This document shows positions 12,567-53,000 of a DNA stretch of 64,000 nt, one piece after another. Below the pieces are notes generated by a model. It searched no databases. It was not told the DNA's origin and saw nothing but the letters and a program-made list of their open reading frames with translations. The DNA is taken from the NCBI GenBank assembly GCA_016125285.1, contig WGMA01000045.1, positions 1-64,000 on the forward strand. Direction: 5' to 3'. This stretch comes from Phycisphaera sp. Lineage in GTDB: Bacteria > Planctomycetota > Phycisphaerae > Phycisphaerales > Zrk34. Position numbers and translations under genes: made by a program. Within the stretch, counting starts at the first letter, position 1; each line of letters starts with the position of its first letter.

Positions 12567-13784
12567 TTGCCCACCCAAGCCAACACATCAACGGACCAGC
12601 CCGGCGATTCCAGCCCGATCGAGCACGAGGTGCTCAGCCGCTACGCCGCCGGCGCCGAGGCCGTCGAGCCCGCGCTGTGCTGTCCGATCGAGGGCTACGA
12701 CGCCCGTTACCTCGAGATCCTGCCCCGCGAGATCGTCGACAAGGACTACGGCTGCGGCGACCCGTCACGCTGGGCGCGCGAGGGGGACACCGTCGTCGAC
12801 CTCGGCAGCGGCGCCGGCAAGATCTGCTACATCCTATCGCAGAAGGTCGGCCCGACGGGGCAGGTCATCGGGGTCGACTTCAACAACGCCATGCTCAAGC
12901 TCGCCCGAAAATATCAGGACGAGATGGCGGAGAAGATCGGGTACGCCAACACGCGATTCGTGAAGGGTCGCATCCAGGACCTCGCGCTCGACCTCGACGC
13001 GCTGAACGCCTGGCTCGCGAATCGCCCCGTGTCCAGCGTCGAAGACCTCGCCGCGCTCGACGCCGAGCGTGACCGCATCCGCTGCAAGGCGCCGCTCATC
13101 CGCAGCGACAGCGTCGACCTCGTGGTCAGCAACTGCGTGCTCAATCTCGTGCGTCCGCAGGACAAGGTCCAGCTGTTCGACGAGATATTCCGCGTGCTGC
13201 GGCGCGGCGGGCGGGCCGTGATCAGCGACATCGTCTGCGACGAGGCCCCCACCGAGCGCGTGCGCAACGACCCGAAGCTGTGGAGCGGCTGCATCGCCGG
13301 GGCGTTCGGCGAGGACGAGTTGCTGGAGATGTTCGAGCGTGCGGGCTTCCACGGCATCGAGATCCTCGCGCGCACCGAGCAGCCGTGGCAGGTGATCGAC
13401 GGCGTCGAGTTCCGCTCGCTGACGGTGCGCGCGTACAAGGGCAAGCAGGGCCCGTGCCTCGAACGCAATCAGGCGGCGATCTACAAGGGGCCTTGGAAGC
13501 AGGTCGTCGACGACGACGGACACGTGTACCTGCGCGGCAAGCGTATGGCGGTGTGCGACAAGACGCACCGCCTGCTGACCGATCCGCAGGGCCCCTACGC
13601 GAAGGACATGATCGGCGTCGAGCCTCACCACGACGTGACGCTCGACGAGGCGGTCGAGATGGACTGCCGCCGCAACGTGATCCGCCACCCGCGTGAGACG
13701 AAGGGCCTGGAGTACCACGAAACGAACTACGAGCCCGACAAGCCGTGCTGCGGCGACAACGGCGACGACAACGCCTGCTGCTGA
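12567..13784 (+). CDS. arsM: ArsM-type arsenite methyltransferase of the arsenosugar pathway
   Basis: SAM-dependent methyltransferase expected to methylate arsenite. Residues about 65-290 show the Rossmann methyltransferase core: VVDLGSGAGKICYILSQ (SAM loop), GVDFNNAMLKLAR, VDLVVSNCVLNLV and RGGRAVISDIVCDE. The SNCVLNL motif and paired cysteines (CC in ALCCPIEGYD and two CC pairs at the extreme C-terminus, CCGDNGDDNACC) are as in ArsM proteins paired with ArsS. The reading frame is open to 12468, but TTG at 12567 is preferred: GGAG lies 9 bases upstream and the protein then begins MPTQANTSTD. It is the first gene of a seven-gene operon, 7 bp before arsS. Arsenic specificity is inferred from family and context. 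Confidence 0.82.
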   Translation: MPTQANTSTDQPGDSSPIEHEVLSRYAAGAEAVEPALCCPIEGYDARYLEILPREIVDKDYGCGDPSRWAREGDTVVDLGSGAGKICYILSQKVGPTGQVIGVDFNNAMLKLARKYQDEMAEKIGYANTRFVKGRIQDLALDLDALNAWLANRPVSSVEDLAALDAERDRIRCKAPLIRSDSVDLVVSNCVLNLVRPQDKVQLFDEIFRVLRRGGRAVISDIVCDEAPTERVRNDPKLWSGCIAGAFGEDELLEMFERAGFHGIEILARTEQPWQVIDGVEFRSLTVRAYKGKQGPCLERNQAAIYKGPWKQVVDDDGHVYLRGKRMAVCDKTHRLLTDPQGPYAKDMIGVEPHHDVTLDEAVEMDCRRNVIRHPRETKGLEYHETNYEPDKPCCGDNGDDNACC

Positions 13785-13791
13785 ATCCACC

Positions 13792-14790
13792 ATGACCACC
13801 AGCGCCGCGCACATCACGATTCGAGGCGACAACGCGTTCGACCGCGCCGTGCGCGACGCCACCGACGACGCCCTTCACGCCGCGTCGCGGATCGCCACAC
13901 TCCAGATCAACGTCGGCCTCACCTGCAACCTCGCGTGTCATCACTGCCACGTCGAATCGTCACCGGCCAGAACGGAGCAGATGGACTGGCCGACGATGCA
14001 GGCCGTAATGGACGTCGCGCGACGCGTCGGCGCCGACACGATCGACATCACCGGCGGCGCGCCCGAGATGAATCCGCATTTCCGCCGCTTCGTCGAGGCC
14101 GCACGCGCCGACGGACGGCGGGTGATGGTGCGGACCAATCTCACGATCCTGCTGGAGCCGGACTACGCGGACCTGCCCGGGTTCTTCGCCGCGAGCCGGG
14201 TGCACCTCGTCGCGTCGCTGCCGTGCTATCTCGAAGCGAACGTCGACAAGCAGCGCGGCAAGCGGGTCTATACCGGCAGCATCGACGCGATCCGTCGGCT
14301 CAACGCGGTCGGCTACGGCGGCGACAACGCGCTGCCGCTCGATCTCGTCTACAACCCGGGCGGCCCGTCGCTGCCCCCGGATCAGGCGTCCCTTGAATCC
14401 GACTACCGACGCGAACTCGACGAGCGGTTCGGCATCCGCTTCACGCGACTGATCTGCATCACGAACATGGCGATCGGCCGTTTCCTGCACGACCTCGAAC
14501 GTGACGGCAAGGCGGACGCCTACCAGCGGCTGCTCCGCGATTCGTTCAATGCCGACGCCGTGACGCCACTGATGTGCCGCCATCAGCTGCACGTGTCGTA
14601 CGACGGCACGCTGCACGACTGCGACTTCAACTACGCGCTGGGCATGCCCTGCCACGCCGCGCTGCCCCAGAACGTGCGCGACTTTGACGCCGCAGCGTTC
14701 GCGAAACGTCGGATCGCTACCGGCGAGCACTGCTTCGGCTGCACCGCGGGCAACGGCTCGTCGTGCGGCGGCGCGCTTGTCGCGGGATAG
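13792..14790 (+). CDS. arsS: Arsenosugar biosynthesis radical SAM protein ArsS
   Basis: Radical SAM enzyme thought to transfer a 5'-deoxyadenosyl group to dimethylarsenite, the step leading to arsenosugars. The 332 residues carry the [4Fe-4S] motif CNLACHHCH at about residue 44, followed by DITGGAPEMNPHFRRFV. The central part has YNPGGPSLPP, and the C-terminal half has the DUF3641-type cysteines in CRHQLHVSYDGTLHDCDFN and the closing CFGCTAGNGSSCGGAL. Relatives of this family sometimes use selenocysteine in the C-terminal motif; here all are cysteine codons. It follows arsM by 7 bp. Confidence 0.88.
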   Translation: MTTSAAHITIRGDNAFDRAVRDATDDALHAASRIATLQINVGLTCNLACHHCHVESSPARTEQMDWPTMQAVMDVARRVGADTIDITGGAPEMNPHFRRFVEAARADGRRVMVRTNLTILLEPDYADLPGFFAASRVHLVASLPCYLEANVDKQRGKRVYTGSIDAIRRLNAVGYGGDNALPLDLVYNPGGPSLPPDQASLESDYRRELDERFGIRFTRLICITNMAIGRFLHDLERDGKADAYQRLLRDSFNADAVTPLMCRHQLHVSYDGTLHDCDFNYALGMPCHAALPQNVRDFDAAAFAKRRIATGEHCFGCTAGNGSSCGGALVAG

Positions 14791-14826
14791 GCGTTGCGGA
14801 CTCAACGCTCAACACGGGAGACGGAG

Positions 14827-15723
14827 ATGACACGCAGGCGACCGTCCGTTCCAACGCTCACGCGTTTGCTGTTCGTCTGCATGATGGCGTTGGTGTCCGT
14901 ATCGACAAACCGCGCGACGGCCAACGACGCGGCCCGCCCGGGCGAACCCGCCAACACCGCCGCGTCCCCGATCGACTACGCCGCCTACGCCGCCGCGCTG
15001 TCCACCCACGTCAGCGATGACGGCTTCGTCGACTACACCTCACTCAAAGCCCACCGCGCCGACCTCGACCAGTTCGTCAAACAACTCGCCGTCCTCGACG
15101 CCAAGGCGTTCAACGCCTGGCCCGAGGCCGACCGACTCGCCCTGCTCATCAACGCGTACAACGCGTTTACACTCCGGCTGATCATCGACCACTACCCCAT
15201 CAAGTCCGGCTTCTTCGCGTCGCTGCGTTTCCCCAGGAACAGCATCCGCCAGATCGGCGGCGCGTGGGACAAGGTCACGTTCAACCTGATGGGCCGGAAC
15301 GTCACGCTCGAACACATCGAGCACGAGATGCTGCGCAAGCAGTATCACGAACCGCGCCTCCACATGGCGATCAACTGCGCCAGCGTCGGCTGCCCGCCGC
15401 TGCGGAACGAGCCGTTCACCGGCGATAAGCTCGACGAGCAACTCGACGCTCAGTCCGGGCGGTTCATGGCGACCGCCGGCAAGTTTCGGATCGACCGCAA
15501 GGCGGGCGTGGTCTACCTCTCGCCGATCTTCAAATGGTTTGGCGACGACTTTGTCGCGGCGTACAAGCCCGCCTCGGGGTTCGGCAACGGTGGCGAGGCG
15601 CTGCGTGCGGTGCTGCACTTCGCGTCGCGGCATGTCGGCGCGAGCGACGCGACGTTCCTCAGCGAAGGCCGGTACGATACCGCGTGGCTCGACTACGACT
15701 GGACGCTCAACGAACGGAAGTGA
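14827..15723 (+). CDS. Exported DUF547 protein
   Basis: A 298-residue DUF547 protein with a signal peptide (MTRRRPSVPTLTRLLFVCMM to ATA). The start ATG at 14827 follows GGGAG at 6 bases; the longer frame from 14794 has no ribosome site. DUF547 hallmarks are FVDYTSLKAHRADLDQFV, LLINAYNAFTLRLIIDHYP, the MAINCASVGCPPLRNEPF motif with two cysteines, and WLDYDWTLN at the end. The ordinary role is unknown, but DUF547 genes recur beside arsM/arsS-type pairs. It is 36 bp after arsS and 3 bp before the VTT gene. Confidence 0.85.
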   Translation: MTRRRPSVPTLTRLLFVCMMALVSVSTNRATANDAARPGEPANTAASPIDYAAYAAALSTHVSDDGFVDYTSLKAHRADLDQFVKQLAVLDAKAFNAWPEADRLALLINAYNAFTLRLIIDHYPIKSGFFASLRFPRNSIRQIGGAWDKVTFNLMGRNVTLEHIEHEMLRKQYHEPRLHMAINCASVGCPPLRNEPFTGDKLDEQLDAQSGRFMATAGKFRIDRKAGVVYLSPIFKWFGDDFVAAYKPASGFGNGGEALRAVLHFASRHVGASDATFLSEGRYDTAWLDYDWTLNERK

Positions 15724-15726
15724 CGC

Positions 15727-16467
15727 GTGGCCGACGAAGCGCCGATCGACATGCCGCCCGCGGACGACGCCCCGCCGCGGCCGTCTCGCGCGTGGGTCAA
15801 GCCGGCGATCCTGCTGATCGTCGTCGTCGGCCTCTTTGTCGCGGCCAAGGTCTTCCATCTCGGTCAGTATCTCACGTCCGCCCGGGGCTGGATCGAATCG
15901 CTCGGTCCGTGGGGGCCCATCGCCTTTATCGCCATCTACGTGATCGCCTGCGTGGCGATGGTGCCCGGCACCGTGCTGACCGCCGCGGCCGGTGGGTTGT
16001 TCGGCGGGCTCTGGGGGACGGTCTACGTGTCGATCGGTTCGACGCTCGGCGCGACGCTCTGCTTCGTGATCAGCCGCTACTTCGCACGCGACTCGATCCA
16101 CCAGTGGCTGTCCGGCAACGAACGCTTCGCGCGGCTCGACCGCCTGACCGAATCGCACGGCGGGTGGATCGTCGCGATCACACGCCTCGTGCCCGTGTTC
16201 CCGTTCAACCTGCTCAACTACGGCTTCGGGCTGACGCGCGTCCGCCTGTGGCATTACGTGCTGCTGTCGTGGCTTTGCATGCTGCCGGGGACGGTGATGT
16301 ACGTCGTCGGCGCCGACGCGATCTTCAAGGGGATCCGCGAAGGCCGCGTGCCGTGGGAACTCGTCGGCGTCGTCGGCGGCGTGCTGGCCTTGCTGACGGG
16401 CCTGACGTGGTTCGCACGCGGTAAACTACGGTCCGTCGAGCAGGACACGCCGACCAACGTGAAATGA
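15727..16467 (+). CDS. TVP38/TMEM64 (VTT-domain) membrane protein
   Basis: A 246-residue polytopic membrane protein of the SNARE-associated/VTT (DedA-related) superfamily. The core motif is AMVPGTVLTAAAGGLFGGLWGT, followed by GATLCFVISRYFARD and the re-entrant region RLVPVFPFNLLNYGFGLTRV, then a long C-terminal helix. Some VTT proteins act as lipid scramblases or carrier-lipid transporters. In this operon the protein may flip a glycosylated or arsenic-containing lipid (inference). It starts at GTG 15727 with GGAAG 7 bases upstream and overlaps the next gene by ATGA. Confidence 0.88.
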   Translation: MADEAPIDMPPADDAPPRPSRAWVKPAILLIVVVGLFVAAKVFHLGQYLTSARGWIESLGPWGPIAFIAIYVIACVAMVPGTVLTAAAGGLFGGLWGTVYVSIGSTLGATLCFVISRYFARDSIHQWLSGNERFARLDRLTESHGGWIVAITRLVPVFPFNLLNYGFGLTRVRLWHYVLLSWLCMLPGTVMYVVGADAIFKGIREGRVPWELVGVVGGVLALLTGLTWFARGKLRSVEQDTPTNVK

Positions 16468-18071
16468 ACACACCCGAGCGTGAGACGAGCAGGATGCCTG
16501 AATCAGACGCCAACCCATCTCGCGAAGAACACGCCGACGACGAGGACCCGTCCGCGCTGATCCGCCCGAACGACGCGGCCAACAGGCGGCTCGTCGCGAA
16601 TGTTCACCCGCCGGACTGGACCAACCCGCGCCCCGCCGAGCGCTACAACCTGGTCGTGATCGGCGCGGGCACCGCGGGCCTCGTCACCGCGGCGGGCGCG
16701 GCGGGACTGGGCGCCAGGGTCGCATTGGTTGAGCGTCACCTGATGGGCGGCGACTGCCTCAACGTGGGGTGTGTGCCGTCGAAGGCGCTGATCCGCTGCG
16801 CGCGTGCTGCGTACGACGTCCGCGTGGCCAACACGTTCGGCGTCAACGTGCCCGGCGGTTTCAACGTCGACTTCCCCGCCGTGATGCAGCGCATGCGCGA
16901 CCTCCGGGCGGACATCTCGCCGCACGACTCGGCGCAGCGGTTTCGCGATCTGGGCGTCGACGTCTTCATCGGCGACGCGAAGTTCACGAGCCACGACACC
17001 GTCGACGTCGGCGGCGCGAAGCTGCGCTTCGCCAAGGCGTGCATCGCCACCGGCGCTCGCGCCGCCGCCCCGCCGATTCCCGGCCTGGACACGATCGAGT
17101 ACGTCACGAACGAGACGGTGTTCGAGCTGACGGAACTGCCGCGCACGATGATCGTCGTGGGCGCCGGGCCGATCGGCTGCGAGATGGCGCAGGCGTTTTC
17201 GAGGTTCGGGTCGAAGGTGTACCTCATCGAGGCGGAGCACAGCGTGCTGCCGCGCGAGGATCGCAGCGCCGCGGAGCTCGTCCGCGCGGCGCTCGAGCGT
17301 GACGGCGTCACGCTGCTGTGCTGCGGCAAGTCGACGACGTTCAGCCCCTCCGACGGAGGGCATCGGGTCACGCTGGAATCGCACGGCCAGCACCACGACA
17401 TCGCCGCCGACGTCGTGCTCGTCAGCGTAGGCAGAACGCCGAACATCGACGGCATCGGCCTCGACGTCGCGGGCGTGCGCACCGACAAGTCCGGCGTCGT
17501 CGTGGACGACACGCTGCGGACCAGCAACCCGCGTGTCTTCGCCGCCGGGGACGTGTGTTCGCGGTACAAGTTCACACACACCGCGGACTTCCTGGCCCGG
17601 ATCGTGATCCAGAACGCGCTGTTCGGGTTCGTGCCGCTGATGAAGGCGAAGGTCTCGGCGCTGACCGTCCCGTGGTGCACCTATACCGACCCGGAGATCG
17701 CGCACGTCGGGCGGACCGTCGCGGAGTTGCAGGACGCGGGCGTGCCCTTCGACACGTACACCGTGCCGATGTCGAGCGTCGACCGCGCCCTCCTCGAGGG
17801 GCACACCGACGGGCTGCTGAAGGTGCACACCGTCAAGGACAAGGACACGATCCTCGGCGCCACCCTCGTGGCGCGTCACGCCGGGGACATGATCAGCGAA
17901 CTCTGCCTGGCGATGACGCACGGCGTCGGCCTCGGCGGGCTCGCGAAGGTGATGCACCCGTACCCGACGACCGCCGACGCCATCCGAAAGGCCGGCGACG
18001 CGTACAACAGGACCCGCCTGACCGAAACGACGAAGACGATCTTCGAAAAGCTGATGGCGTGGCAACGGTGA
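16464..18071 (+). CDS. Mercuric-reductase-like FAD disulfide oxidoreductase
   Basis: A class I flavoprotein disulfide reductase of 535 residues. FAD binding is seen in VVIGAGTAGLVTAAGAAGLG; the redox-active disulfide is GGDCLNVGCVPSKAL; NAD(P)H binding is VVGAGPIGCEMAQAFSRFG; and the second FAD motif is VFAAGDVCSRYKFTHTADF. The C-terminal dimerisation domain ends HPYPTTADAIRKAGDAY with the His partner. There is no N-terminal HMA metal-binding domain and no vicinal C-terminal Cys pair as in true MerA, so mercury reduction is unlikely. A role in reducing an arsenic or thiol intermediate is an inference from context. It overlaps the VTT gene by 4 bp. Confidence 0.85.
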   Translation: MNTPERETSRMPESDANPSREEHADDEDPSALIRPNDAANRRLVANVHPPDWTNPRPAERYNLVVIGAGTAGLVTAAGAAGLGARVALVERHLMGGDCLNVGCVPSKALIRCARAAYDVRVANTFGVNVPGGFNVDFPAVMQRMRDLRADISPHDSAQRFRDLGVDVFIGDAKFTSHDTVDVGGAKLRFAKACIATGARAAAPPIPGLDTIEYVTNETVFELTELPRTMIVVGAGPIGCEMAQAFSRFGSKVYLIEAEHSVLPREDRSAAELVRAALERDGVTLLCCGKSTTFSPSDGGHRVTLESHGQHHDIAADVVLVSVGRTPNIDGIGLDVAGVRTDKSGVVVDDTLRTSNPRVFAAGDVCSRYKFTHTADFLARIVIQNALFGFVPLMKAKVSALTVPWCTYTDPEIAHVGRTVAELQDAGVPFDTYTVPMSSVDRALLEGHTDGLLKVHTVKDKDTILGATLVARHAGDMISELCLAMTHGVGLGGLAKVMHPYPTTADAIRKAGDAYNRTRLTETTKTIFEKLMAWQR

Positions 18072-18088
18072 GGCGGTAAGCTGACGCC

Positions 18089-19519
18089 ATGCGAGCACGA
18101 GCGTTTCACATCTGCGGGCTGACGCTTGTGCTGCTGTGTGCCGCGATCGCGTGGGTCGTGCCGTTCCAGGAACAGATCACCCGCGGCTCGTCGCTGTTCA
18201 CGTTCGTGCCGATCTACATCGTCGCGTCCGTCGTGTACCTACTCGCGGCCCGCGACATGGGTCAACCATCCGGCAAGGCGCGCTGGGTGCTGATCATCGG
18301 TGTCGGCGTCGCGATGCGTATCGCCATGATCACGGCGCCGCCCATCCTCGAAGACGACTATCACCGCTACCTCTGGGACGGCGCGGTGACCGCCCACGGC
18401 CACAACCCCTGGCTTGTCGCACCAAACGAGGTGGAGACCGCCGTTGTCTTTCGCCTGGAGCGCGGCGCCGCGCATCACACGAACATCCCCGACGACCTGA
18501 TCGCAGCGGCGCACGCCCACACCCGCACGATCGCCAACATCAACCACGGACACCTGCGTACGGTCTACCCGCCGGTGGCGCAGGCCGCGTTTGCCGCCGC
18601 GTATGCCCTTTCGCCATTCAGCGTCGGCGCGTGGCGCGCGGTGCTGCTCTTGTTTGACGCCGCGACACTCGTGTTGATCGTCGCGTTGCTGCGCCGGTTG
18701 AACCGACCGACGGCGTGGGCCGCCCTGTACTGGTGGTGTCCGCTGGTCGTGATCGAGGTGATCAACCGCTGCCACATGGACGTGATCGCGTTTCCGTTCG
18801 TGGTTGGCGCGGTGCTGCTGACGCTTCGTCGCCGGCACGTGTGGGCGATGGCCGTGCTCGGACTGGCGATCGGCGCGAAGCTCTGGCCGCTCGTTCTGGC
18901 CCCGCTGCTGCTGCGCCCGCTGCTGGGCGAGCCGCGGCGATTGATCGCGCCGGTCGCGGTCCTCGCGATTGTCGGCCTGCCGATGGTGCTCGCGACGCTG
19001 AGCGGCGGCATCGATAGCCAGACCGGCCTGATCGCGTACGGCAAGAGCTGGTCCAACAACAGCGCGCTGCACGAGGCCGGCCTCATGGTGTTCCGGCTCT
19101 TTGGCGGGACATCAGGCATGCCCGGCTACGCGTACGGTGTCACGCGCGGCCTGATGGCGCTGGGGACCCTCGGCCTGATCGGGTTTCTGGCGTGCTGGCC
19201 CCTGCGTGACGCGGGCGACCTGTGCGGGCGCTGCGTGTGGACGGTCGCGGGTGTGTTCCTGTTGAGCCCGACACAGTTTCCGTGGTACTGGCTGTGGGCG
19301 CTGCCGCTGCTGACGACGCGACCGCTGCGTTGGGCCCTGCTGTATGCCGCCCTCCTGCCGCTCTACCATCTCAACGAACGACTCGGCATGACGTGGGTCG
19401 TCTGGGCGGAGCACATTCCGGTCGCGATCGTGATGCTCATCGAGTTCCGTGGCCTCCTCCCGGAACTGGCCCGACGCGCGGAACTCGACGAATCGGCGTC
19501 CGAACAGGAGGTCGTGTGA
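18089..19519 (+). CDS. Polytopic glycosyltransferase (GT87/GT-C-like)
   Basis: A 476-residue membrane protein with about ten to twelve hydrophobic helices. After the second helix pair it has DDYHRYLWDGAVTAHGHNPW, the acidic loop typical of GT-C enzymes that use polyprenyl-phosphate sugars (GT87/mannosyltransferase-like). Later landmarks are INHGHLRTVYPPVAQ, VIEVINRCHMDVIAFPFVVG and FLLSPTQFPWYWLWALPLL. The acceptor is unknown; its place between the flavoprotein and the triple glycosyltransferase suggests that it adds a sugar at the membrane in the arsenosugar or arsenolipid route. Start ATG 18089 is 17 bp after the previous gene; the end overlaps the next by 4 bp. Confidence 0.75.
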   Translation: MRARAFHICGLTLVLLCAAIAWVVPFQEQITRGSSLFTFVPIYIVASVVYLLAARDMGQPSGKARWVLIIGVGVAMRIAMITAPPILEDDYHRYLWDGAVTAHGHNPWLVAPNEVETAVVFRLERGAAHHTNIPDDLIAAAHAHTRTIANINHGHLRTVYPPVAQAAFAAAYALSPFSVGAWRAVLLLFDAATLVLIVALLRRLNRPTAWAALYWWCPLVVIEVINRCHMDVIAFPFVVGAVLLTLRRRHVWAMAVLGLAIGAKLWPLVLAPLLLRPLLGEPRRLIAPVAVLAIVGLPMVLATLSGGIDSQTGLIAYGKSWSNNSALHEAGLMVFRLFGGTSGMPGYAYGVTRGLMALGTLGLIGFLACWPLRDAGDLCGRCVWTVAGVFLLSPTQFPWYWLWALPLLTTRPLRWALLYAALLPLYHLNERLGMTWVVWAEHIPVAIVMLIEFRGLLPELARRAELDESASEQEVV

Positions 19520-21669
19520 CGGAATCCCCGATCGACGTCGGCAGCTGGAAGATCGCCGTGGTGATCCCCGCGCTCAACGAGGAGGCGTCGATCGGCAAGG
19601 TGATCGAGGCGATCCCGGAATGGGTCGACCGCGTGGTCGTCGGTGACAACGGCTCGACCGATCGCACGGTGGCCATCGCGATGGGCCGCGACGCGACGGT
19701 CGTGATCGAGCCGCGGCGCGGGTACGGTTCGGCGTGCCTCAAGGCGCTGGCCGAGTTGAAGCGGGACGAGCCGGACATCGTCGTGTTCCTCGACGCGGAC
19801 TTCGCGGACGATGCGTCGCGGATGGTTGAACTGGTGCGTCCCATCATCGAAGGCACGGCCGACATGGTGCTCGGGTCGCGGACACGCGGCGACGCCGAGC
19901 CGGGTGCGCTCACGCTGCTGCAGCGATACGGCAACCGATTGCCGTGCGTGCTGATGCGTTGGCTTTGGGGCGCGCGGTTCAGCGACCTCGGTCCGTTCCG
20001 CGCGGTGCGATGGTCGGCGCTGAAGCGGCTGGAGATGGACGACGCCGACTGGGGCTGGACCGTGCAGATGCAGGTCCGCGCGGTCAGGAAGGGCCTGCGG
20101 TGCGTCGAGGTGGCCGTGCCCTACCGTCGGCGTATCGGCCGGTCGAAGATCAGCGGAACGTTCACGGGCGTCATCAAGGCCGGGACGAAGATCCTCTACA
20201 CGATCTTCGCCGAAGCCACGCGCGGCCTGCGTGTGGCGACGCCCGCTCGCGAGCGCCTCATTGTCATGACACGCTGGCCCGAACCCGGGCGGACGAAAAC
20301 ACGCATGATCCCCGCGCTCGGCGAGGACGGCGCGGCCGCGCTGCAACTGAACATGACGCGACACGTGCTGCGTTGGATCGACGCGTTGCGATGGCGTCGA
20401 CCGTTCGGCGTCGAGATCCGTTACGCCGGGGGTGACGACGAGCTGATGCAGCGCGACTTCGGGCGGCAACGCGCGTACGTCCCGCAGGGCGACGGCGACC
20501 TCGGCGCCCGGATGAGCCGCGGGTTCGGCGAAGCGTTCGATGACGGTGTATCAGCCGTCGCGATGATCGGCTGCGACTGCCCGAGCGTAACCGGCGACGT
20601 GATCCGCGACGCCTTCTCGGAGCTGCATCGCGGCGCGGACGTGGTCCTGGGCCCGGCGAACGACGGCGGGTACTACCTCATCGGCCTGTCACGCATGGTC
20701 GGCGACCTGTTTGTCGGCGTCGACTGGGGCACCGACCGTGTCATGACGCAGACGCTGGCCAAGTGCCACACGCTGAACCTGCGTGTCACGACACTCGAAG
20801 AACGCCACGACGTCGATGTGCCCGACGACCTGCCCGAGTGGGAAAGAGCGCTGGCCGAGCATCCCGCGCCGACCGGCGGCAAGGGGCTAACCGTCATCGT
20901 GCCCACGCTGAATGAGGAGGCAGAGATCGGGCACACGCTGAATCGGCTCACCACGGTCGAAGATGTCGACGTCATCGTGGCGGACGGCGGAAGCACCGAC
21001 GAGACGCTGGCCATCGCGGCCGCTGCGGAGGCGCGCGGCGTGCGGGTGGTCAAGTCAGAACCGGGCCGGGCCGGACAGATGAACGCGGGCGCCGCGGCGG
21101 CTGGCAAGGACGCATCCGTGCTGCTGTTCTGCCACGCCGACACGCTGCTGCCGGAGGGCTACGAGCGATTGGTGCGCGAGGCGCTCGCGGATCCCCGCAC
21201 GGTGGCCGGGGCCTTTACGCTGAGCATCGACGACGAGCGGTGGTCGCTGCGATTCATCGAGTGGCTCGTGCGGTGGCGGACCACACGTCGACAGCTGCCC
21301 TACGGCGACCAGGCGATCTTCGTGCGACGCGCGGCGTTCGAGTTCATCGGCGGCTATCGCGACGTGCCGGTGATGGAGGATTACGACCTGATCAAGCGTC
21401 TGCGGCGTGTCGGACGCATCGCGACGGTAAACGAGCCGGTGGTCACGTCGGGGCGGACGTGGCGGCGCGCCGGCGTGTGGCGCACCACGCTCGTGCATCA
21501 GGTGATCATTGTCGGCTGGAAGCTCGGCGTCAGCCCGAGGTGGCTGGCGCAACGGCGGAAGCAATGGCTGAGCGGCCGCAAGCACGCCACAGACGGCGAC
21601 CTCGATCAAACCGACAGCGTCGCGCCGGGCGATACCGACGCGACGAGCGAATCGACGAAGGGTGAGTGA
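19516..21669 (+). CDS. Three-domain glycosyltransferase fusion: GT2 + TIGR04282 + TIGR04283
   Basis: A 717-residue protein starting at GTG 19516 (ACAGGAGG 5 bases upstream, overlapping the previous stop). Residues 1-245 are a dolichol-phosphate-mannose-synthase-like GT2 domain: VVIPALNEEASIGK, VGDNGSTDRT, VFLDADFADD, LGSRTRGDAEPGAL. Residues about 246-455 match TIGR04282 (DUF2064, GT-A-like): VMTRWPEPGRTKTRM, MIGCDCPS, VVLGPANDGGYYLIGL. Residues about 457-690 match TIGR04283: VIVPTLNEEAEI, VADGGSTDETL, PGRAGQMNAGAAAA, LLFCHADTLLPEG. The last two families are annotated as arsenosugar glycosyltransferases and are usually separate genes. It ends with a hydrophilic tail and directly abuts the convergent ftsH with no base between. 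Confidence 0.88.
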   Translation: MTESPIDVGSWKIAVVIPALNEEASIGKVIEAIPEWVDRVVVGDNGSTDRTVAIAMGRDATVVIEPRRGYGSACLKALAELKRDEPDIVVFLDADFADDASRMVELVRPIIEGTADMVLGSRTRGDAEPGALTLLQRYGNRLPCVLMRWLWGARFSDLGPFRAVRWSALKRLEMDDADWGWTVQMQVRAVRKGLRCVEVAVPYRRRIGRSKISGTFTGVIKAGTKILYTIFAEATRGLRVATPARERLIVMTRWPEPGRTKTRMIPALGEDGAAALQLNMTRHVLRWIDALRWRRPFGVEIRYAGGDDELMQRDFGRQRAYVPQGDGDLGARMSRGFGEAFDDGVSAVAMIGCDCPSVTGDVIRDAFSELHRGADVVLGPANDGGYYLIGLSRMVGDLFVGVDWGTDRVMTQTLAKCHTLNLRVTTLEERHDVDVPDDLPEWERALAEHPAPTGGKGLTVIVPTLNEEAEIGHTLNRLTTVEDVDVIVADGGSTDETLAIAAAAEARGVRVVKSEPGRAGQMNAGAAAAGKDASVLLFCHADTLLPEGYERLVREALADPRTVAGAFTLSIDDERWSLRFIEWLVRWRTTRRQLPYGDQAIFVRRAAFEFIGGYRDVPVMEDYDLIKRLRRVGRIATVNEPVVTSGRTWRRAGVWRTTLVHQVIIVGWKLGVSPRWLAQRRKQWLSGRKHATDGDLDQTDSVAPGDTDATSESTKGE

Positions 21670-38451: not shown

Positions 38452-39927
38452 ATGCATCGATTTGTTGCGCTATGCGCCGTCGTCGTCGCGTTGTCGGTCG
38501 CCGCTGTCGGCCGCGCCGCCGAACCGTTCGTCAAGAACGTCGTGTTCATCCTTTCGGACGATCACCGCTACGATTTCATGCACTTTCACCCACGGTGTCC
38601 GAAGTGGCTGGAGACGCCCGCGATGGATCGCATGGCCGCGGAGGGCGCGCACGTCGCCAACGCCTTCGTGTCCACCTCGCTCTGCTCGCCGAGCCGCGCG
38701 TCGATCCTCACCGGCCTGTACATGCACCACCACAAGGTCGTCGACAATCAGCACCCCGTGCGCCCCGGCGTAACCTTCTTCCCGCAGTACCTGCAGAAGG
38801 CGGGCGTGCAGACCGCGTTCATCGGCAAGTGGCACATGGGCCACGACAACGACGACCCGCGCCCCGGCTTCGACTACTGGGCGTCGTTCAAGGGTCAGGG
38901 CACGTACTTCGACCCCGAGTTGAACGTCAACGGCAAGCACGTCCAACTCAAGGGCTACAACACCGACGTGCTGACGAAGGTCGCGATGGACTGGCTGGCC
39001 GACGGGCGCGACAAGTCGAAGCCGTTCTTCATGTACCTCTCGTACAAGGCGGTGCACTACCCGTTCGTCCCGGCGCCGCGACACGCGGGGATGTACGCCG
39101 ACAAGCCGATCGATTGGCCCGAGACACGCGGACGCACCGAGCAGAACTACCGCACGCAGCCCAACTGGGTCCGCGAGCGACGCTACTCCATCCACGGCAT
39201 CGACCACATGGAGACCGGCCCGTTCGACAAGGACCCCGTGCCCGACCTCGATGCGCTCTATCATCAGTACGCCGAGACGGTGCACGGCCTCGACGAAAAC
39301 CTCGGCAAGCTGATGGCGTACCTCGATTCGTCCGGCCTGGCGAAGGACACGCTGGTGATCTACATGGGCGACAACGGCTTCCACCTCGGCGAGCACGGAT
39401 TCTACGACAAGCGCGACGCGTTCGAGACCTCGATGCGCGTGCCGATGCTCGCGTGGGCGCCGGGGCACATCAAGCCGGGCACGGTGGTGACGCCGATGGT
39501 GCAGAACATCGATATCGCACCGACGGTGATGGATGCGATGGGCGTCGCGGCCCCGGAGTCTGCGAAGTTCGACGGACGGAGCTTCCTGCCGCTGCTGCGG
39601 GGCGAGACCGTCGCGGACTGGCGTGACCACATCCTGTACGAGTACCACTGGGAGTGGAACTTCCCCGCGACGCCGACACTGTTCGCCATCCGCACCGACC
39701 GCTACAAGTACGTCTACTACCACGGCACGTGGGACATCGACTCGCTGCACGATCTGCAGACCGACCCCGACGAGCGGCACAACCTGATCCAGGTGCCCGC
39801 CTATCAAAAGTTGGCCACGAAGCTGCGCGACCAGATGTTCAAGGAACTCGAAGCCAGCGGCGCCCTCGACGTGCCCGTCCGCCCGCCGCACGGCGATCGC
39901 CTCGGTCAGCGCAAGCTGCCGGAGTGA
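38452..39927 (+). CDS. Secreted sulfatase
   Basis: A 491-residue sulfatase exported by a signal peptide (to GRAAEP). The metal site begins VVFILSDDHRYDFM, the formylglycine site is CSPSR with Cys78, followed by ASILTGLY, and GKWHMGHDND and YMGDNGFHLGEHGFYDKR are further catalytic landmarks. The closing part has TDRYKYVYYHGT and the LHDLQTDPDERHNL motif. The family cleaves sulfate esters from polysaccharides; activation needs a formylglycine-generating enzyme not seen here. It is 91 bp after the anti-sigma gene, and a control link to the sigma factor is possible. Confidence 0.92.
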   Translation: MHRFVALCAVVVALSVAAVGRAAEPFVKNVVFILSDDHRYDFMHFHPRCPKWLETPAMDRMAAEGAHVANAFVSTSLCSPSRASILTGLYMHHHKVVDNQHPVRPGVTFFPQYLQKAGVQTAFIGKWHMGHDNDDPRPGFDYWASFKGQGTYFDPELNVNGKHVQLKGYNTDVLTKVAMDWLADGRDKSKPFFMYLSYKAVHYPFVPAPRHAGMYADKPIDWPETRGRTEQNYRTQPNWVRERRYSIHGIDHMETGPFDKDPVPDLDALYHQYAETVHGLDENLGKLMAYLDSSGLAKDTLVIYMGDNGFHLGEHGFYDKRDAFETSMRVPMLAWAPGHIKPGTVVTPMVQNIDIAPTVMDAMGVAAPESAKFDGRSFLPLLRGETVADWRDHILYEYHWEWNFPATPTLFAIRTDRYKYVYYHGTWDIDSLHDLQTDPDERHNLIQVPAYQKLATKLRDQMFKELEASGALDVPVRPPHGDRLGQRKLPE

Positions 39928-40408: not shown

Positions 40409-40930
40409 ATGTCTGTGAACAGCGAACAGATTGTGCAGGTGTTGATGCGGCAGCGGACGAAGCTGCTGGCGTACATACGCGTGATCGTGCGCGACAATCA
40501 CATGGCGGAGGATGTGCTGCAGGAGGTGTCGATGCTGGCCGTCCGCAAGGCCGATCAAATCGACGGCGCCGAGGGCATTGAGCGGTGGGTGTTCAAGGCG
40601 GCGCGGCTGGAGGCGATGAACTTCCTGCGACGTCGTCACAGCGACCCGCTGACACTCGACGCCGCAGTGCTCGACGCGATCGACGCGCGGCTCACCGCCG
40701 CGGCCGCCCTGCCGGACTCCGACGTGTCCGACGCCCTGACGCAATGCGTCGAGCAGCTGTCGCCCTACGCGCGACGGCTCGTTCAGATGCGGTACGGCGA
40801 GGGACTGACCGGGCAGCGTCTGGCCGAGTCGCTGGACCGCAAACTCAACACCGTCTACGTCGCCCTGACCCGCATCCACCACGTGCTGCAGGATTGCGTG
40901 CGCACCCGCATGGAGCAGGCGCATGGCTGA
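40409..40930 (+). CDS. ECF sigma factor (planctomycete type)
   Basis: A 173-residue sigma-70-like factor of the short group common in planctomycetes. Region 2: LLAYIRVIVRDNHMAEDVLQEVSMLAVRKA and WVFKAARLEAMNFLRRR. Region 4: CVEQLSPYARRLVQMRYGEGLTGQRLAESLDRKLNTVYVALTRIH. The stop overlaps the next gene by 8 bp, and that gene encodes a FecR-like membrane regulator, so the two form a signal-transduction pair. No Shine-Dalgarno sequence precedes the ATG. Confidence 0.9.
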   Translation: MSVNSEQIVQVLMRQRTKLLAYIRVIVRDNHMAEDVLQEVSMLAVRKADQIDGAEGIERWVFKAARLEAMNFLRRRHSDPLTLDAAVLDAIDARLTAAAALPDSDVSDALTQCVEQLSPYARRLVQMRYGEGLTGQRLAESLDRKLNTVYVALTRIHHVLQDCVRTRMEQAHG

Positions 40931-42353
40931 GCCGATCAACAACCCGATCGACGGCAACGGCGCCGACACGCGAGACATGGACGATCGCGACTTTCAGCTG
41001 CTGGCGATGCGGTACATCGACCAGCTGATCACGCGGGACGAGCTCGACCGGCTGAACGCCGAACTCGACGCCAACCCCGCCCGCCTCGACTGGTTCGTCA
41101 CTACCGTGCTGCACGGGCAGGCGATGACGGAGATCTGCCGGACGAACGCCCAGCGCGACATGCTGCTGCGTTTGCCGGATCAGGTCAGCAGCGTTGACCT
41201 TCGACGTGCCCGCGGCGGCCGCACCTTCCGGGGAGTTTCCCGGTTTGTTGCGGCCGCCGTTCTTTTAATCTCATGCGCGCTCGGCGCGATGTACCTCGTC
41301 AATCGCCCCAACGCCGCCTCGCGTGAAACAGCGGTGTATCAACCGACCGGCACACCGGTGGCGACGCTCACCGAGCTGACGCAGCCGGTATGGGACGACG
41401 CCGGCGGCACCGGTCTGATGGGCGCCGGCGTGCGGATCGACGGCACGCCGATGGCGTTGGAACTCGGCTACACCGAGTTGCTGCTCGACCAGGGCGCGGC
41501 GGTGTCAGTCGCGGCCCCGGCGCGGTTCCGGGTCACCGGGCCCAATTCGTGCGAGCTGACACGCGGCACGCTCCTGGCGCGTGTGCCGACGGGTGCGCAC
41601 GGCTTCCGCGTCACCACGCCGGAGATGGACGTGGTCGACCTCGGCACCGTGTTCCTCGTACATGTCAGCTCATCTGGGCAAACTGAGGTGCACGTGCTGA
41701 AGGGACGTGTCGAGGCCTCCTCGATGACCAACGACGGGATCGCGATCACCCGGCAGATCGTCACCGCTCAGCAGGCGGTCAGCAGCGCCGGATCGACGGA
41801 TCGCCTGTCGTCGATCGCTTACGACCCGGGCCGGTTCGTCTGGCCGAGCGACGACGACGCGCCATCGGTAAGGGGACGCATCCAGTTGCTGGCCGCCCCG
41901 CCGGACTCGCTGGTCAAGGGCAGGCTCACAAGCGACAACATGGTCTTGTTCCGCGAGCGACGCGGCGCGGCGTTGACGAAGCAGGACGCGGCTACCCTGG
42001 CCAAGTCGCCCTACAACCCCGCCGGCGCCAAGCCGCATGCCGGCGCGCACGTCGATGTCTACATGGCGCACCTCGACCCCAACACCGGTGCTGACGAAAA
42101 GCGAGCGGCGCACGTCGAGATGACGATCACGTTCCCCCGCCGGATCGTCGGCGTCATCGGAACGAACGCCGGGCTGACCGCCACCGACGCGACGCTCGGC
42201 GCGCCGGCGACCTTGTACGACCCACGCCTGCTGAACAACATGGGCCTCGACGCCGATGACAACCTCACGATCAGCCCGAACGGACGCACGGCAACCTACG
42301 TTGGCGGCGCGTACCGCATGGACGAGATCCGCTTCCTGATCGAAGCGGACTAA
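40923..42353 (+). CDS. FecR-like membrane anti-sigma regulator
   Basis: A 476-residue protein: an N-terminal anti-sigma-like helical part (RDFQLLAMRYIDQLITRDELDRLNAEL), one transmembrane helix near residue 110 (FVAAAVLLISCALGAMYLV), then a FecR domain seen in LLDQGAAVSVAAPARFRVTG, GTLLARVPTGAHGFRVTTPEMDVVDLGT and VHVLKGRVEA. The last 170 residues are a separate region with no family that I recognise. It is expected to hold the ECF factor at the membrane until an outside signal is sensed. It overlaps the sigma gene by 8 bp. Confidence 0.85.
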   Translation: MAEPINNPIDGNGADTRDMDDRDFQLLAMRYIDQLITRDELDRLNAELDANPARLDWFVTTVLHGQAMTEICRTNAQRDMLLRLPDQVSSVDLRRARGGRTFRGVSRFVAAAVLLISCALGAMYLVNRPNAASRETAVYQPTGTPVATLTELTQPVWDDAGGTGLMGAGVRIDGTPMALELGYTELLLDQGAAVSVAAPARFRVTGPNSCELTRGTLLARVPTGAHGFRVTTPEMDVVDLGTVFLVHVSSSGQTEVHVLKGRVEASSMTNDGIAITRQIVTAQQAVSSAGSTDRLSSIAYDPGRFVWPSDDDAPSVRGRIQLLAAPPDSLVKGRLTSDNMVLFRERRGAALTKQDAATLAKSPYNPAGAKPHAGAHVDVYMAHLDPNTGADEKRAAHVEMTITFPRRIVGVIGTNAGLTATDATLGAPATLYDPRLLNNMGLDADDNLTISPNGRTATYVGGAYRMDEIRFLIEAD

Positions 42354-44849: not shown

Positions 44850-44935
44850 CGGGGTGCGGATAATCACGTACGAGGTTGCTATGCTGTGTCCGGCACGCGT
44901 TTCCCGTGAACCGGAGCACGCAAAGGGACCCGTTG

Positions 44936-46456
44936 ATGCGAAACCTCTTTATGTGGATCGTCGCGCTGGCCGCGATGTCGTTCCTGCTGGCCTCATCGAT
45001 CACCCACGCCGCGGAGCGTCCCAACGTCGTGCTGATCATGGTCGACGACATGGGCTGGTCGGACCTCGGCTGCTACGGCGGTGAGATCCACACACCGAAC
45101 ATCGATCGGCTGGCATCCGAGGGACTGCGGTTCACGCAGTTCTACAACACCGCCAAATGCGAGACGACGCGAGCGGCGCTGATGAGCGGCCTCTATCACC
45201 CGGAGGTCGGCGTCGCGAAGCTCGCGAACTGCATGACGGTTGCGGAGGTGATGAAGCGCGCGGGGTACTTCACGATGATGGCCGGCAAGTGGCACCTGGA
45301 CAAGCAGCCGACCGACCGCGGGTTCGACCGCTACTTCGGTCACCTCAGCGGCTCGACGCCGTACTTTCTGGGCAACGACACGTTTCGTCTCAACGGCGAG
45401 AAGTTCGACGTTCCGAAGGAAGGCTTCTACACGACGACCGCCGACACGGACTACGCGCTGAAGTTCCTTGATGAGGCGTCGACGAAGAAGCAACCGTTCT
45501 TTCTCTACATCGCGTACAACGCGCCGCACTACCCGCTGCAGGCGCCCGAAGCGGAGGTCAGGAAGTACGTCGGCAAATACATGGACGGGTGGGACGCGCT
45601 GCGTGCGGCGCGATACAAGCGCCAACTCGACATGGGGCTGATCCCCGCGAAGTGGGCGCTGTCGCCACCGCACCCCGAGGCGAAGAAGTGGGATACGCTG
45701 AGCGACGACGAGAAGAAGCACGAGGATCTGAAGATGGCGACGTTCGCCGCAATGGTCGACGTCGTGGACCAGAACGTCGGCCGGTTGGTCAAGAAACTGG
45801 AAGCGATGGGCGTGGCGGACGACACGTTGCTGCTGTTCCTGTCGGACAACGGCGCGTGCCCGTTCGACCGTACGAAGCACGGCGACCTGATGCCGTGGGA
45901 CCCGCAGTCGTACTGGTGCTACCACCCGGCGTGGGCGAACGCGTGTAACACGCCGTTCCGCTGGTTCAAGCAGAACCAGCACGAGGGCGGCATCTCGACG
46001 CCGCTGATCGCGCACTGGCCGAAGGGGTTAACGGCGAAGCCCGGCTCGCTGACCGATCAGCCCGGTCACCTCGTCGACATCATGGCGACGCTGATCGACG
46101 TGGCGGGGACCGACTACCCGGCGGAGTTCAACGGCGAGACGCTCAAGCCGCTGCGGGGCATTTCGCTGTTGCCGATCCTCAAAGGCCAGCATCGCGACGG
46201 GCACGACATGATCTTCTTCCAGTTCTCCAACAACCGGGCGGTGCGTGCGGGCCAGTGGAAGCTCGTCTCGGCGCGCGGCGGGCCGTGGGAGCTGTACGAC
46301 ATGGACGCGGACCGCACAGAGTTGCACGACCTGTCTTCGCAGCAACCCGAGCGTGTCGCGGCGCTGAGCGCGGCGTGGGAGGCGTGGGCCGAGGAGACCG
46401 GCGCGTCCAAGGGCGGCAAGAGCAAGAAGAACAAGAACGCCGCGTCGTCCAAGTAG
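44936..46456 (+). CDS. Secreted sulfatase with CETTR active-site motif
   Basis: A 506-residue sulfatase with a signal peptide (to ITHAAE). Metal site VVLIMVDDMGWSDLGCYGGEI; GKWHLDKQPTDRGFDRYFG; LFLSDNGACP; NEGG-like QHEGGISTPLIAHWP; WELYDMDADRTELHDL. The residue expected to become formylglycine is Cys75 in CETTRAALMSG, which lacks the Pro/Ala of the usual CxPxR/CxAxR signature. A basic tail, GGKSKKNKN, ends the protein. AAAGGGA lies 7 bases before ATG 44936; a longer frame from 44876 would spoil the signal peptide. Confidence 0.88.
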   Translation: MRNLFMWIVALAAMSFLLASSITHAAERPNVVLIMVDDMGWSDLGCYGGEIHTPNIDRLASEGLRFTQFYNTAKCETTRAALMSGLYHPEVGVAKLANCMTVAEVMKRAGYFTMMAGKWHLDKQPTDRGFDRYFGHLSGSTPYFLGNDTFRLNGEKFDVPKEGFYTTTADTDYALKFLDEASTKKQPFFLYIAYNAPHYPLQAPEAEVRKYVGKYMDGWDALRAARYKRQLDMGLIPAKWALSPPHPEAKKWDTLSDDEKKHEDLKMATFAAMVDVVDQNVGRLVKKLEAMGVADDTLLLFLSDNGACPFDRTKHGDLMPWDPQSYWCYHPAWANACNTPFRWFKQNQHEGGISTPLIAHWPKGLTAKPGSLTDQPGHLVDIMATLIDVAGTDYPAEFNGETLKPLRGISLLPILKGQHRDGHDMIFFQFSNNRAVRAGQWKLVSARGGPWELYDMDADRTELHDLSSQQPERVAALSAAWEAWAEETGASKGGKSKKNKNAASSK

Positions 46457-50004: not shown

Positions 50005-53000
50005 CTATTGGATGCCGAACCAGCCTTTGACGGTGTTTACGGTGGTGCTATTGGCCAGATTCTTCAGCGCCTGCCGCGGCCCTCGGCGGAAGCTGGTGAC
50101 CACCGTGCTCCGCACGTCGTCGAGGGCGTTGAACCCAACCGCCAACGCGTCCGTGGCCGCCATGCCGGCACGGGTGTTGGTGTAGTAGTCGCCGGCCCGG
50201 GTCGTGTACTGGCTGACCGTGCCCAGATCGCCACGCCGTGAACGTTCGACGAAGTTGTCCAACGCCTCAAAGCGACGATTGCCCTGCGTCAGGTACTTGA
50301 ACACGTCCTCATCGAACGCGCCAACCGCACGGGAGAAGTTGCCGAACGTTGCGTCGAACAGCTTCGGAGCACACAGGCCGAATCCGAATTCGAATAGCAG
50401 GTCGATGCCCGACGAAATCGCCTGGAACAGCGCCGTCTGCGGCAAGGCCGTAAACACACCGATGCCGGCCGCGCCGATCACGTTGCCCGCGGTGCCGGGC
50501 CTGGCGTTCGGGTCGGTCAACTCGCTGCCGACGTTGATCACGACGCCCAGGGCCGTGGCGAGCTTGCCCAGCGCCTTGAGCCGACCCGCGGTCCGACCGA
50601 GGCTCTTGGCCGCATCAAGCTCGCCGCGCGCCGCCTTCAGACCGTTCGCCGCGGTCTGGGCCGCCTGCGCGTCTGCCCGCAGCGCCTGAATCGCCTCGGT
50701 GGCCGTCGCCGTGTCACGGAACACGCCGCGTGTGACATCGGTCAGGAACTCCGACTGCGCCAGACGTCGGATCGCCTCCTTGTTACCGAAGATCCGCTCG
50801 GCGCCCTTCACCGCGTTCTCGAGCGTCTTAAGCTTCGACGGATCAACGGTCGCGAGTTTTTCCAGCAGTCCAAGGAGCACGCCAAGGTTGTCGTTGACAC
50901 GGCCCACCTGGGTCTTGCCATCGGACCGGACCGTCGCCCGACTGTTCAGGCCCGACGGGTCGACCGCATTGATCACGTTGTTGCCGACATATCGATAGAT
51001 GTTCGCGTCGCCCGCGCCGAAGCCCAGCGGGTCCTCGCTCAGGAAGACGCCCAGCTGCGGATCGTAGTAGCGGGCGCGGTAGTACATCAGCCCGGTCGAG
51101 GAGTCCAGTTCGCGACCGGTGTAGCCGAACCGCGTGGTGACCAGCGGGTTTGTCTGATCGATCACGTTGCCGAACGCGTCGTAGATGATGTGGTTCTGCT
51201 CGGCGCCGGTGTTGTCGACGATGTCGCGGACCGTGTTCTGATGATCGGTCAGCGTCCAAAGCACGTCGCCGCCGCCGCGATCGTCGGCCAGGATCTGATC
51301 GTCGCTCTGCCCGTAAAGGTAGTGCGACAACGAGGCCCCGCCCGCCGTCATTGCCGCGAACAGGTGGGCGCCGTTGTACATCAGCCGCACCTCGTCCGCA
51401 GCCCCGGCGCCATCGCCGTCGTCGTCGACCGAAATCGCGATGCGGCGGTCGAGCGCGTCGTAGGTGTACTCCGTGATCCGAGTTGCGGGCCCCATCGCCG
51501 TGGCGCGTTCGGTCACGCTCGTCAGGCGGTTACGGTAATCCCACTGGTACTCGGTGACCGCGCCCGTGGCGATCGTCGTCCGCACCGTGCGGTTGCCGTT
51601 GGCGTCATAGGTGTAGGTGTACGTGCCATCGGAGATCGGTCGGTTGGCCAGGCCGAAGCTGTAGTTCGTCCCGTGCAGCTGCGACTCGGTGCGGTTGCCC
51701 GCGTTATCGTACGCGTAGGTCTCGTCGGGGTTGTCCACGTCGTCGTGCGTCGCCGACGTCAGTTCGTCGGCCGCGTCGTACGTGAATACGTGCGCGCCGT
51801 CGACGTCGACGATCTGCGTGATCCGGTTGTCCGCGTCGTACGTGTAGTCGTACGAATTGAGTGTCGACGCCATCGGATCGTTGTGCGTCAGGGTGTCCAG
51901 GCGGTTGGACAGGTCGTAGGTCAGCACCGATGACGCGACGACCGACGAGCCGGCAAGATCGCTGTAGCGATCGATCTGCGTGGCCATGCCCTCGTCGTTG
52001 TAGGTGAAGTCCACGCGTTTGTCGGACGTGTCGACACCCGACTGCGTCACACGCGTCAGCAGGTCGAGCTCGTCGTACTGCATCGTCACGACGCTGCCCG
52101 CCATCCCGCCGATCGTCTCGTCGATCTGCGTCACGTTCCCGTTGGCGTCGTAGGTGTATTCCAGCAGCGTGCTCGTCGCGCCGGGCGTGCCCGCCGTCGA
52201 CTCCGAGGCGCGACGGCCCGCCAGGTCGTACGTGAACGTGAGCGTCGAATCGGGGTCGCTGACCATGAGCAGCTCACCCGCGAGGTCGTACTGGTAGGTG
52301 GTCGTCCGCACCAGCTGATCCCCGCCGTCACGCCACTGCTCTTCGGTGACACGATCGCGCCCGTCAACGACAAACACGCGCGATTGGCCCAGGCCGTCGG
52401 TCACACGCGTCAGGTTGCCCATCGCGTCGTACGCGTACACCGTGGCGTTGCCGGTCTGATCGGTCTCGCTAACGCGACGGTTCTCCGCGTCGTACGCGTA
52501 CGACGTGGCGTTGCCGTCTGGGTCCGTGACCAGCACGAGGTTGTCCTCCTCGTCGTACGAATATGACGTCACCTTGCCGCGTTCATCGGTGACGCTCGTG
52601 CCCCGGTTCAGGGCGTCGTAACCGAACATGCGGATGTTGCCCAGCTCATCGGTCTCCTTCGTCAGGTTCCCCACCGCGTCGTACTCGTACGTCGTGGTGT
52701 TGCTCGCGGCGTCCTCAAACGTCACCCGTCGATTCAGCTCGTCATAGGTATACGTGACGGTGTGGTTGAGGCGATCGGTGATGGTCAACAGGTTGCCGGC
52801 GTCGTCGTAGGTGTACGTCGCGTCGTTGCCGGCGCGGTCGGTATGCGTGATCAGGCGATTCAGGTCGTCGTACGCGTACATGGACATCTGGCCCAGGCCA
52901 TCCGTGTCCATGACGATATTGCCCACCGCGTCGTACTCCGTCGACGTCGAATTGCCGAGCGGATCGACCGTCTCGACGGTGCGATCCAGCGCGTCATACG

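Follow-up and report, generated by a model that had tools for sequence, protein, structure and literature searches.

A seven-gene operon from Phycisphaera sp. (positions 12567-21669 of a 64,000-nucleotide stretch of contig WGMA01000045.1, hereafter the window) may encode an extended arsenosugar pathway, in which ArsM, ArsS, a phosphorylase, a nucleotidyltransferase and a branch consisting of a GT2 glycosyltransferase, polyprenyl phosphate and a GT-C glycosyltransferase would act in turn. We put the probability of this reading at a little under one-half. The operon itself is real, and it is conserved; the core is already known and, judging by the reachable literature, the extension is new. It is more than a chance arrangement, since other genomes of the class, and of other phyla, carry the gene set in the same order. 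The steps of ArsM and ArsS are the only ones that rest on characterised homologues; every step after ArsS is inferred. All seven genes lie on the + strand, in an assembly of 6.1 Mb with a completeness of 97%, and the open reading frame calls agree with the gene positions given in an earlier annotation of this DNA (the original prediction). The intergenic distances are, in order, 7, 36, 3, -4, 17 and -4 bp. Thus, the largest gap is 36 bp, as had been said, and there are two 4-bp overlaps rather than three; the third does not exist.

Family scores and conserved motifs bear out the proposal of an arsM plus arsS core. ArsM (12567-13784; TTG start, with GGAG 8 nt upstream) would be an As(III) S-adenosylmethionine (SAM) methyltransferase with a long C-terminal extension. 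Its relatives in the PDB are arsenic methyltransferases (4kw7, E 7e-32), and its four cysteine motifs, LCC, YGCG, SNCV and WSGC, are all kept in 30 sequences. The alignment with 4kw7 covers YGCG, SNCV and the third motif, and begins downstream of LCC; we take the arsenic-binding cysteines to correspond to residues 44, 72, 174 and 224 of CmArsM. The protein falls outside the arsenosugar ArsM subfamily NF038099 (115 bits, cut-off 400). ArsS (13792-14790), a predicted radical SAM enzyme for 5'-deoxyadenosyl transfer to dimethylarsenic, matches TIGR04167 at 419 bits, above the curated cut-off of 300. Its iron-sulphur motif CX3CX2C is present as CNLACHHC and is invariant among relatives, as is HCFxCTAGxGSSC at the C-terminus in the homologue alignment; the C-terminal Cys-rich (DUF3641) domain, HCFGCTAGNGSSC, matches PF12345 at 166 bits. 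Selenoprotein read-through of ArsS was ruled out: the open frame stops after GGALVAG, the expected Cys positions are Cys, and there is no UGA.

That ArsM would yield dimethylarsenite, and that ArsS would join dimethylarsenite to 5'-deoxyadenosine, is well supported by family membership. Two papers give ArsM and ArsS as the characterised basis for the first two steps of the pathway (PMC8552651, PMC12159101). As in the Synechocystis pathway (Xue 2019 and Cheng 2021, cited in those two papers), ArsM and a TIGR04167 ArsS would form a 5'-deoxyadenosyl dimethylarsenic nucleoside; in the window, however, they are genes 1 and 2 of a seven-gene operon with putative enzymes of activation and lipid-linked glycosylation. 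The arsinothricin cluster arsQML (PMC8552651) likewise has a long, NF040538-related ArsM adjoining a radical SAM enzyme, whereas the window has ArsS instead of ArsL, lacks arsQ, and has an ArsM that scores 330 bits against the arsinothricin ArsM family NF040538, below the cut-off of 500.

Gene 7 (19516-21669; GTG start, GGAGG upstream) had been called a triple glycosyltransferase. It does hold three domains, two of them of GT2 type: domain A (19552-20217, residues 12-233) is like a polyprenyl-phosphate-sugar synthase and lies near AglJ and dolichol-phosphate mannose synthase (DPMS), and domain C (20887-21552, residues 457-678) is the MftF-like GT2 TIGR04283 (269 bits, cut-off 182). The middle domain B (20257-20832, residues 247-438) is TIGR04282 (199 bits, cut-off 134), which by fold and motif is a predicted nucleotidyltransferase. 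NCBI already names both TIGR04282 and TIGR04283 "arsenosugar biosynthesis glycosyltransferase," and with ArsS they make up the known core of the operon, all three falling in families that carry the "arsenosugar biosynthesis" name. Three of the four families in the NCBIfam arsenosugar set (TIGR04167, TIGR04169, TIGR04282 and TIGR04283) are therefore above cut-off here; the operon differs from that set in having no TIGR04169 peroxidase-like gene and in adding GT-C, DPMS-like, VTT, flavoprotein and DUF547 members.

We read the TIGR04282 domain as a predicted CofC/FbiD-type nucleotidyltransferase and not a glycosyltransferase because of the fold neighbours of its model, a profile match to FbiD and its invariant motifs. 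The model (predicted local distance difference test score [pLDDT] 97) has as its nearest fold 3cgx, an uncharacterised relative, followed by 3-phosphoglycerate guanylyltransferase, FbiD, CofC, KdsB, GlmU and IspD; the profile matches FbiD (6bwg) at E 6e-4, and PxxGxxKTR, GxD and DGGY show no variation across 25 sequences. The domain shares the fold and the KTR/DGG motifs of the CofC/FbiD enzymes, but its proposed substrate is arsenoribose-1-phosphate, and gene 7 scores 21.7 bits against TIGR03552 (CofC; cut-off 105), so that it is not CofC proper. The name "TIGR04282 glycosyltransferase" would then be wrong.

For domain A, the best profile match is DPMS (5mlz, E 3e-16, residues 6-210), near full length. 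The motifs DNGS, DxD, GSR, DLGPFRA and YRxRxGxSK are conserved, with D92xD94 invariant; in domain C, HAD, GDQ and ED are invariant. The adjoining gene encodes a GT87-like GT-C glycosyltransferase (18089-19519; PF09594, 27.8 bits, cut-off 25), with profile matches to PIG-M (E 2e-7) and to the mannosyltransferase 9dm5 (E 9e-5). The nearest folds to its AlphaFold model (pLDDT 87.5) are PIG-M/Dol-P-Man, PimE, ALG6 and ALG3, at weak Foldseek E-values of 1e-3 and above, and D90 in DxxRYLWDG, the acidic residue of the first long loop, is invariant. The GT-C enzyme is predicted to use a polyprenyl-phosphate sugar, given its resemblance to PIG-M and PimE, which depend on lipid-phosphate sugars. The window resembles the polyprenyl/dolichol-phosphate-sugar pathways (DPMS with PimE, PIG-M, ALG3 and ALG6) in that a GT2 synthase accompanies a GT-C enzyme related to theirs in fold and motif; the window's pair differs in being linked to, and in relatives sometimes fused with, arsenosugar-associated domains.

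How might these enzymes extend the pathway? The ArsS product resembles 5'-methylthioadenosine (MTA). We imagine that a housekeeping MTA phosphorylase cleaves this MTA-like arsenic nucleoside to 5-dimethylarsino-ribose-1-phosphate; as a sugar-1-phosphate, this would be the kind of substrate that a nucleotidyltransferase needs. An MTA phosphorylase is encoded in the host genome (TIGR01694, 283.7 bits, cut-off 274.85). Protein clustering turned up neither a nucleosidase nor a phosphorylase, whether within the operon or as a recurrent gene of ArsS neighbourhoods; the step that removes adenine is absent from the operon, so it must come from elsewhere. TIGR04282 would then join 5-dimethylarsino-ribose-1-phosphate to a nucleotide, giving nucleoside diphosphate-arsenoribose, and the TIGR04283 GT2 would move arsenoribose onto a soluble or lipid acceptor. 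One can envision that the DPMS-like domain loads arsenoribose onto polyprenyl phosphate and that the GT-C enzyme uses the polyprenyl-phosphate arsenoribose on the outer membrane face, yielding a glycosylated lipid or glycan. This lipid-carrier reading is no more than plausible. In its full form, with polyprenyl-phosphate-arsenoribose made, as an activated carrier of the organoarsenic sugar, by way of the phosphorylase, nucleotidyltransferase and GT2, and GT-C then attaching arsenoribose, outside the cell, to lipids of the membrane or glycans of the surface, it seems rather improbable. Arsenoribosides bound to phospholipids, or to the isoprenoid phytol, are among the known natural products (PMC11009773, PMC7345539), and thus lipid-bound products are chemically reasonable. 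For the steps after ArsS, no gene assignment was found in the reachable literature, outside which most subscription journals lie.

The original prediction had staked itself on conservation of the neighbourhood in relatives, and several neighbourhoods of the class do hold the whole set. Our class survey covered 198 genomes, 48 with ArsS and 150 without, and 40 ArsS neighbourhoods were read. All nine domain families, ArsM included, are present at no fewer than five further loci, four of the class (L046, L060, L061 and L077) and one in another class (L101). Among the named genomes scanned, the set, whole or in part, appeared in Planctomycetota, Hydrogenedentota, Acidobacteria, Omnitrophota, Latescibacterota, Poribacteria, Syntrophaceae and Betaproteobacteria, and the arrangement TIGR04283-ArsS-VTT-TIGR04282 appeared in Thermoplasmata and other euryarchaea. 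Within the class, the flavoprotein family occurs in 31 of 48 ArsS genomes versus 1 of 150 others, with 27 of its 35 copies no more than 15 kb from ArsS, and TIGR04283 occurs in 24 of 48 versus 2 of 150; Fisher p-values on these counts, and on those for the phylum below, ignore relatedness.

Across 94 ArsS loci, none shorter than 16 kb, the partners of ArsS fall into three modules: TIGR04282 with TIGR04283 (r 0.74), VTT with the flavoprotein (r 0.86), and GT-C (GT87) with the DPMS-like GT2 (r 0.90). DUF547 correlates at about 0.6 with both accessory pairs. Independent pairs on the ArsS tree give a median p of 0.008 for TIGR04282/TIGR04283. For the other two modules, GT-C/DPMS and VTT/flavoprotein (median p 0.06 and 0.03, respectively), strongly supported independent pairs are few, and their correlations are therefore independent of ancestry to a moderate degree only. 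In relatives, the three gene-7 domains are encoded separately or fused in other ways. At locus L049, a single frame of 1,141 amino acids joins GT87, the DPMS-like domain, TIGR04282 and TIGR04283; three more genomes of the same family have frames of 1,142-1,147 amino acids with the DPMS-like domain and TIGR04283, and GT87 was seen in the one that was read at length (L074). Such shared chains are good evidence for joint action of the lipid-type and the arsenosugar-named pair in the fusion genomes. The suggestion of a lipid- or carrier-linked product thus holds in part: the linked GT-C/DPMS pair, the fusions and the matches to dolichol-phosphate-sugar enzymes argue for it, but the VTT protein, taken originally as a hint of arsenolipid flipping, is weak evidence, as the VTT and flavoprotein pair is not arsenic specific.

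The three genes between ArsS and the GT-C enzyme may form a redox/membrane module; our guess is that it keeps arsenic or a thiol partner reduced. The DUF547 protein (14827-15723; PF04784, 83.7 bits) has a signal-like hydrophobic N-terminal segment (residues 7-25) and a conserved HxxxxCxxxxCP, and it is probably exported. The VTT (DedA/TVP38) membrane protein (15727-16467; GTG start; PF09335, 104.5 bits) has conserved Rx3R and NYxxGlT motifs; its Pfam match, like that of the DUF547 protein, exceeds the family threshold. The pyridine-nucleotide-disulphide flavoprotein (16464-18071), of PRK06370 type, matches NF004991 at 776 bits (cut-off 620) and has a conserved CLNxGC. It is not MerA, given a TIGR02053 score of 371, below 454, and a C-terminus (FEKLMAWQR) without the Cys pair. 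At L049 (7309-8949, - strand), DUF547 and VTT matches lie within one open frame of 547 amino acids, which suggests that the two may act together.

Several observations weigh against an extended pathway. About one-fifth of the 94 ArsS loci carry the GT-C pair, and GT87 and DPMS pairs were found without ArsS in the stretch that was read, which rules out this pair as exclusive to ArsS loci. Among 19 flavoprotein loci far from ArsS, most nonetheless have an adjoining VTT gene. Over the whole phylum, the flavoprotein is present in 37 of 81 ArsS genomes versus 20 of 165 others, and so does not depend on ArsS; as an arsenosugar-exclusive gene, it holds in the class and is ruled out for the phylum. 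The MTA phosphorylase gene sits on a different contig and is unlinked to the operon. Given their occurrence away from ArsS, the accessory pairs may have ordinary functions in glycolipid or redox metabolism; as modules, they are recruited and not exclusive to ArsS loci.

It is possible, if not what we favor, that only the known soluble arsenosugar is made, by ArsM, ArsS, TIGR04282 and TIGR04283, and that the other genes have separate functions (ordinary glycolipid, redox or envelope maintenance) within a metalloid island. Minimal Alcanivorax loci, which hold only ArsS, TIGR04283 and TIGR04282, fit this, as do the ArsS-free occurrences of both accessory pairs and the mercury-transport-like and phosphate-permease genes that are also in such islands. 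However, the fusion of GT-C and DPMS with TIGR04282 and TIGR04283 in one chain, the triple fusion and 4-bp overlaps of the window, and the presence of ArsS in 31 of the 32 flavoprotein genomes in the class all argue for a shared function. Another reading, unlikely in our view but to be reckoned with, is that GT-C and the DPMS-like domain decorate an arsenosugar lipid with an ordinary sugar (mannose or glucose), or make the glycolipid acceptor, and that arsenoribose is never on polyprenyl phosphate. The relatives DPMS, PIG-M, PimE, ALG6 and ALG3 all use mannose or glucose; fusion to a nucleotidyltransferase domain would instead favor a dedicated sugar, though the data do not separate the sugars. 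Very doubtful is a detoxification operon of methylation, conjugation and export (by VTT or another membrane protein) with the sugar incidental: ArsM methylation is recognised as detoxification (PMC12159101), an ArsC-like protein is kept elsewhere in the host genome and major facilitator superfamily transporters adjoin ArsM/ArsS in some relatives, but the operon is without arsR, acr3 and arsB, VTT proteins are not known as arsenic exporters, and three sugar-nucleotide-type domains are more than detoxification requires.

If true, the lipid-carrier reading in its full form would give non-photosynthetic bacteria a genetic route to arsenolipids. The operon also predicts that planctomycetes, along with several other phyla that are mostly uncultured, produce organoarsenicals. 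Both arsenosugars and arsenolipids occur widely in marine food webs, and the reachable literature gives genes for the first two steps only; a modular, conserved operon makes the remaining pathway directly testable.

Other genes recur near arsS in relatives. Seven loci of the class and related groups (L048, L055, L058, L060, L062, L072 and L077) have a gene for a PiT-type anion (phosphate) permease near arsS, in most of them directly upstream and ending approximately at the arsS start; it is absent from the window's operon. Arsenolipids are reported to be linked to phosphate supply (PMC7345539), which the position of the permease fits, and a deliberate arsenate or phosphate link is possible. 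A multi-YHS-domain (seleno)protein-like gene (NF041384) is upstream of arsS/arsM at L048, L055, L056, L058 and L072, and MerT/MerP-like genes occur in related islands. A different ArsS group (L038, L039, L040, L041 and L063) has an AhpD-like TIGR04169 peroxidase, mostly in place of the cassette.

In the window, the genes preceding the operon read, from their translations, as pyridine-nucleotide transhydrogenase subunits. At its other end, gene 7 and ftsH, on the opposite strand, meet tail to tail (21669/21670, one base apart). Farther on, sulfatase genes (PF00884) at 38452-39927 and 44876-46456 (+ strand) stand on either side of a FecR-domain gene (40923-42353), in what appears to be a planctomycete locus of the sulfated-polysaccharide type. 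A single open frame of 4,642 amino acids at 50005-63933 (- strand) contains a Y_Y_Y domain along with roughly 16 RHS repeats; its predicted product is an Rhs/YD-repeat protein of very large size, secreted or at the cell surface.

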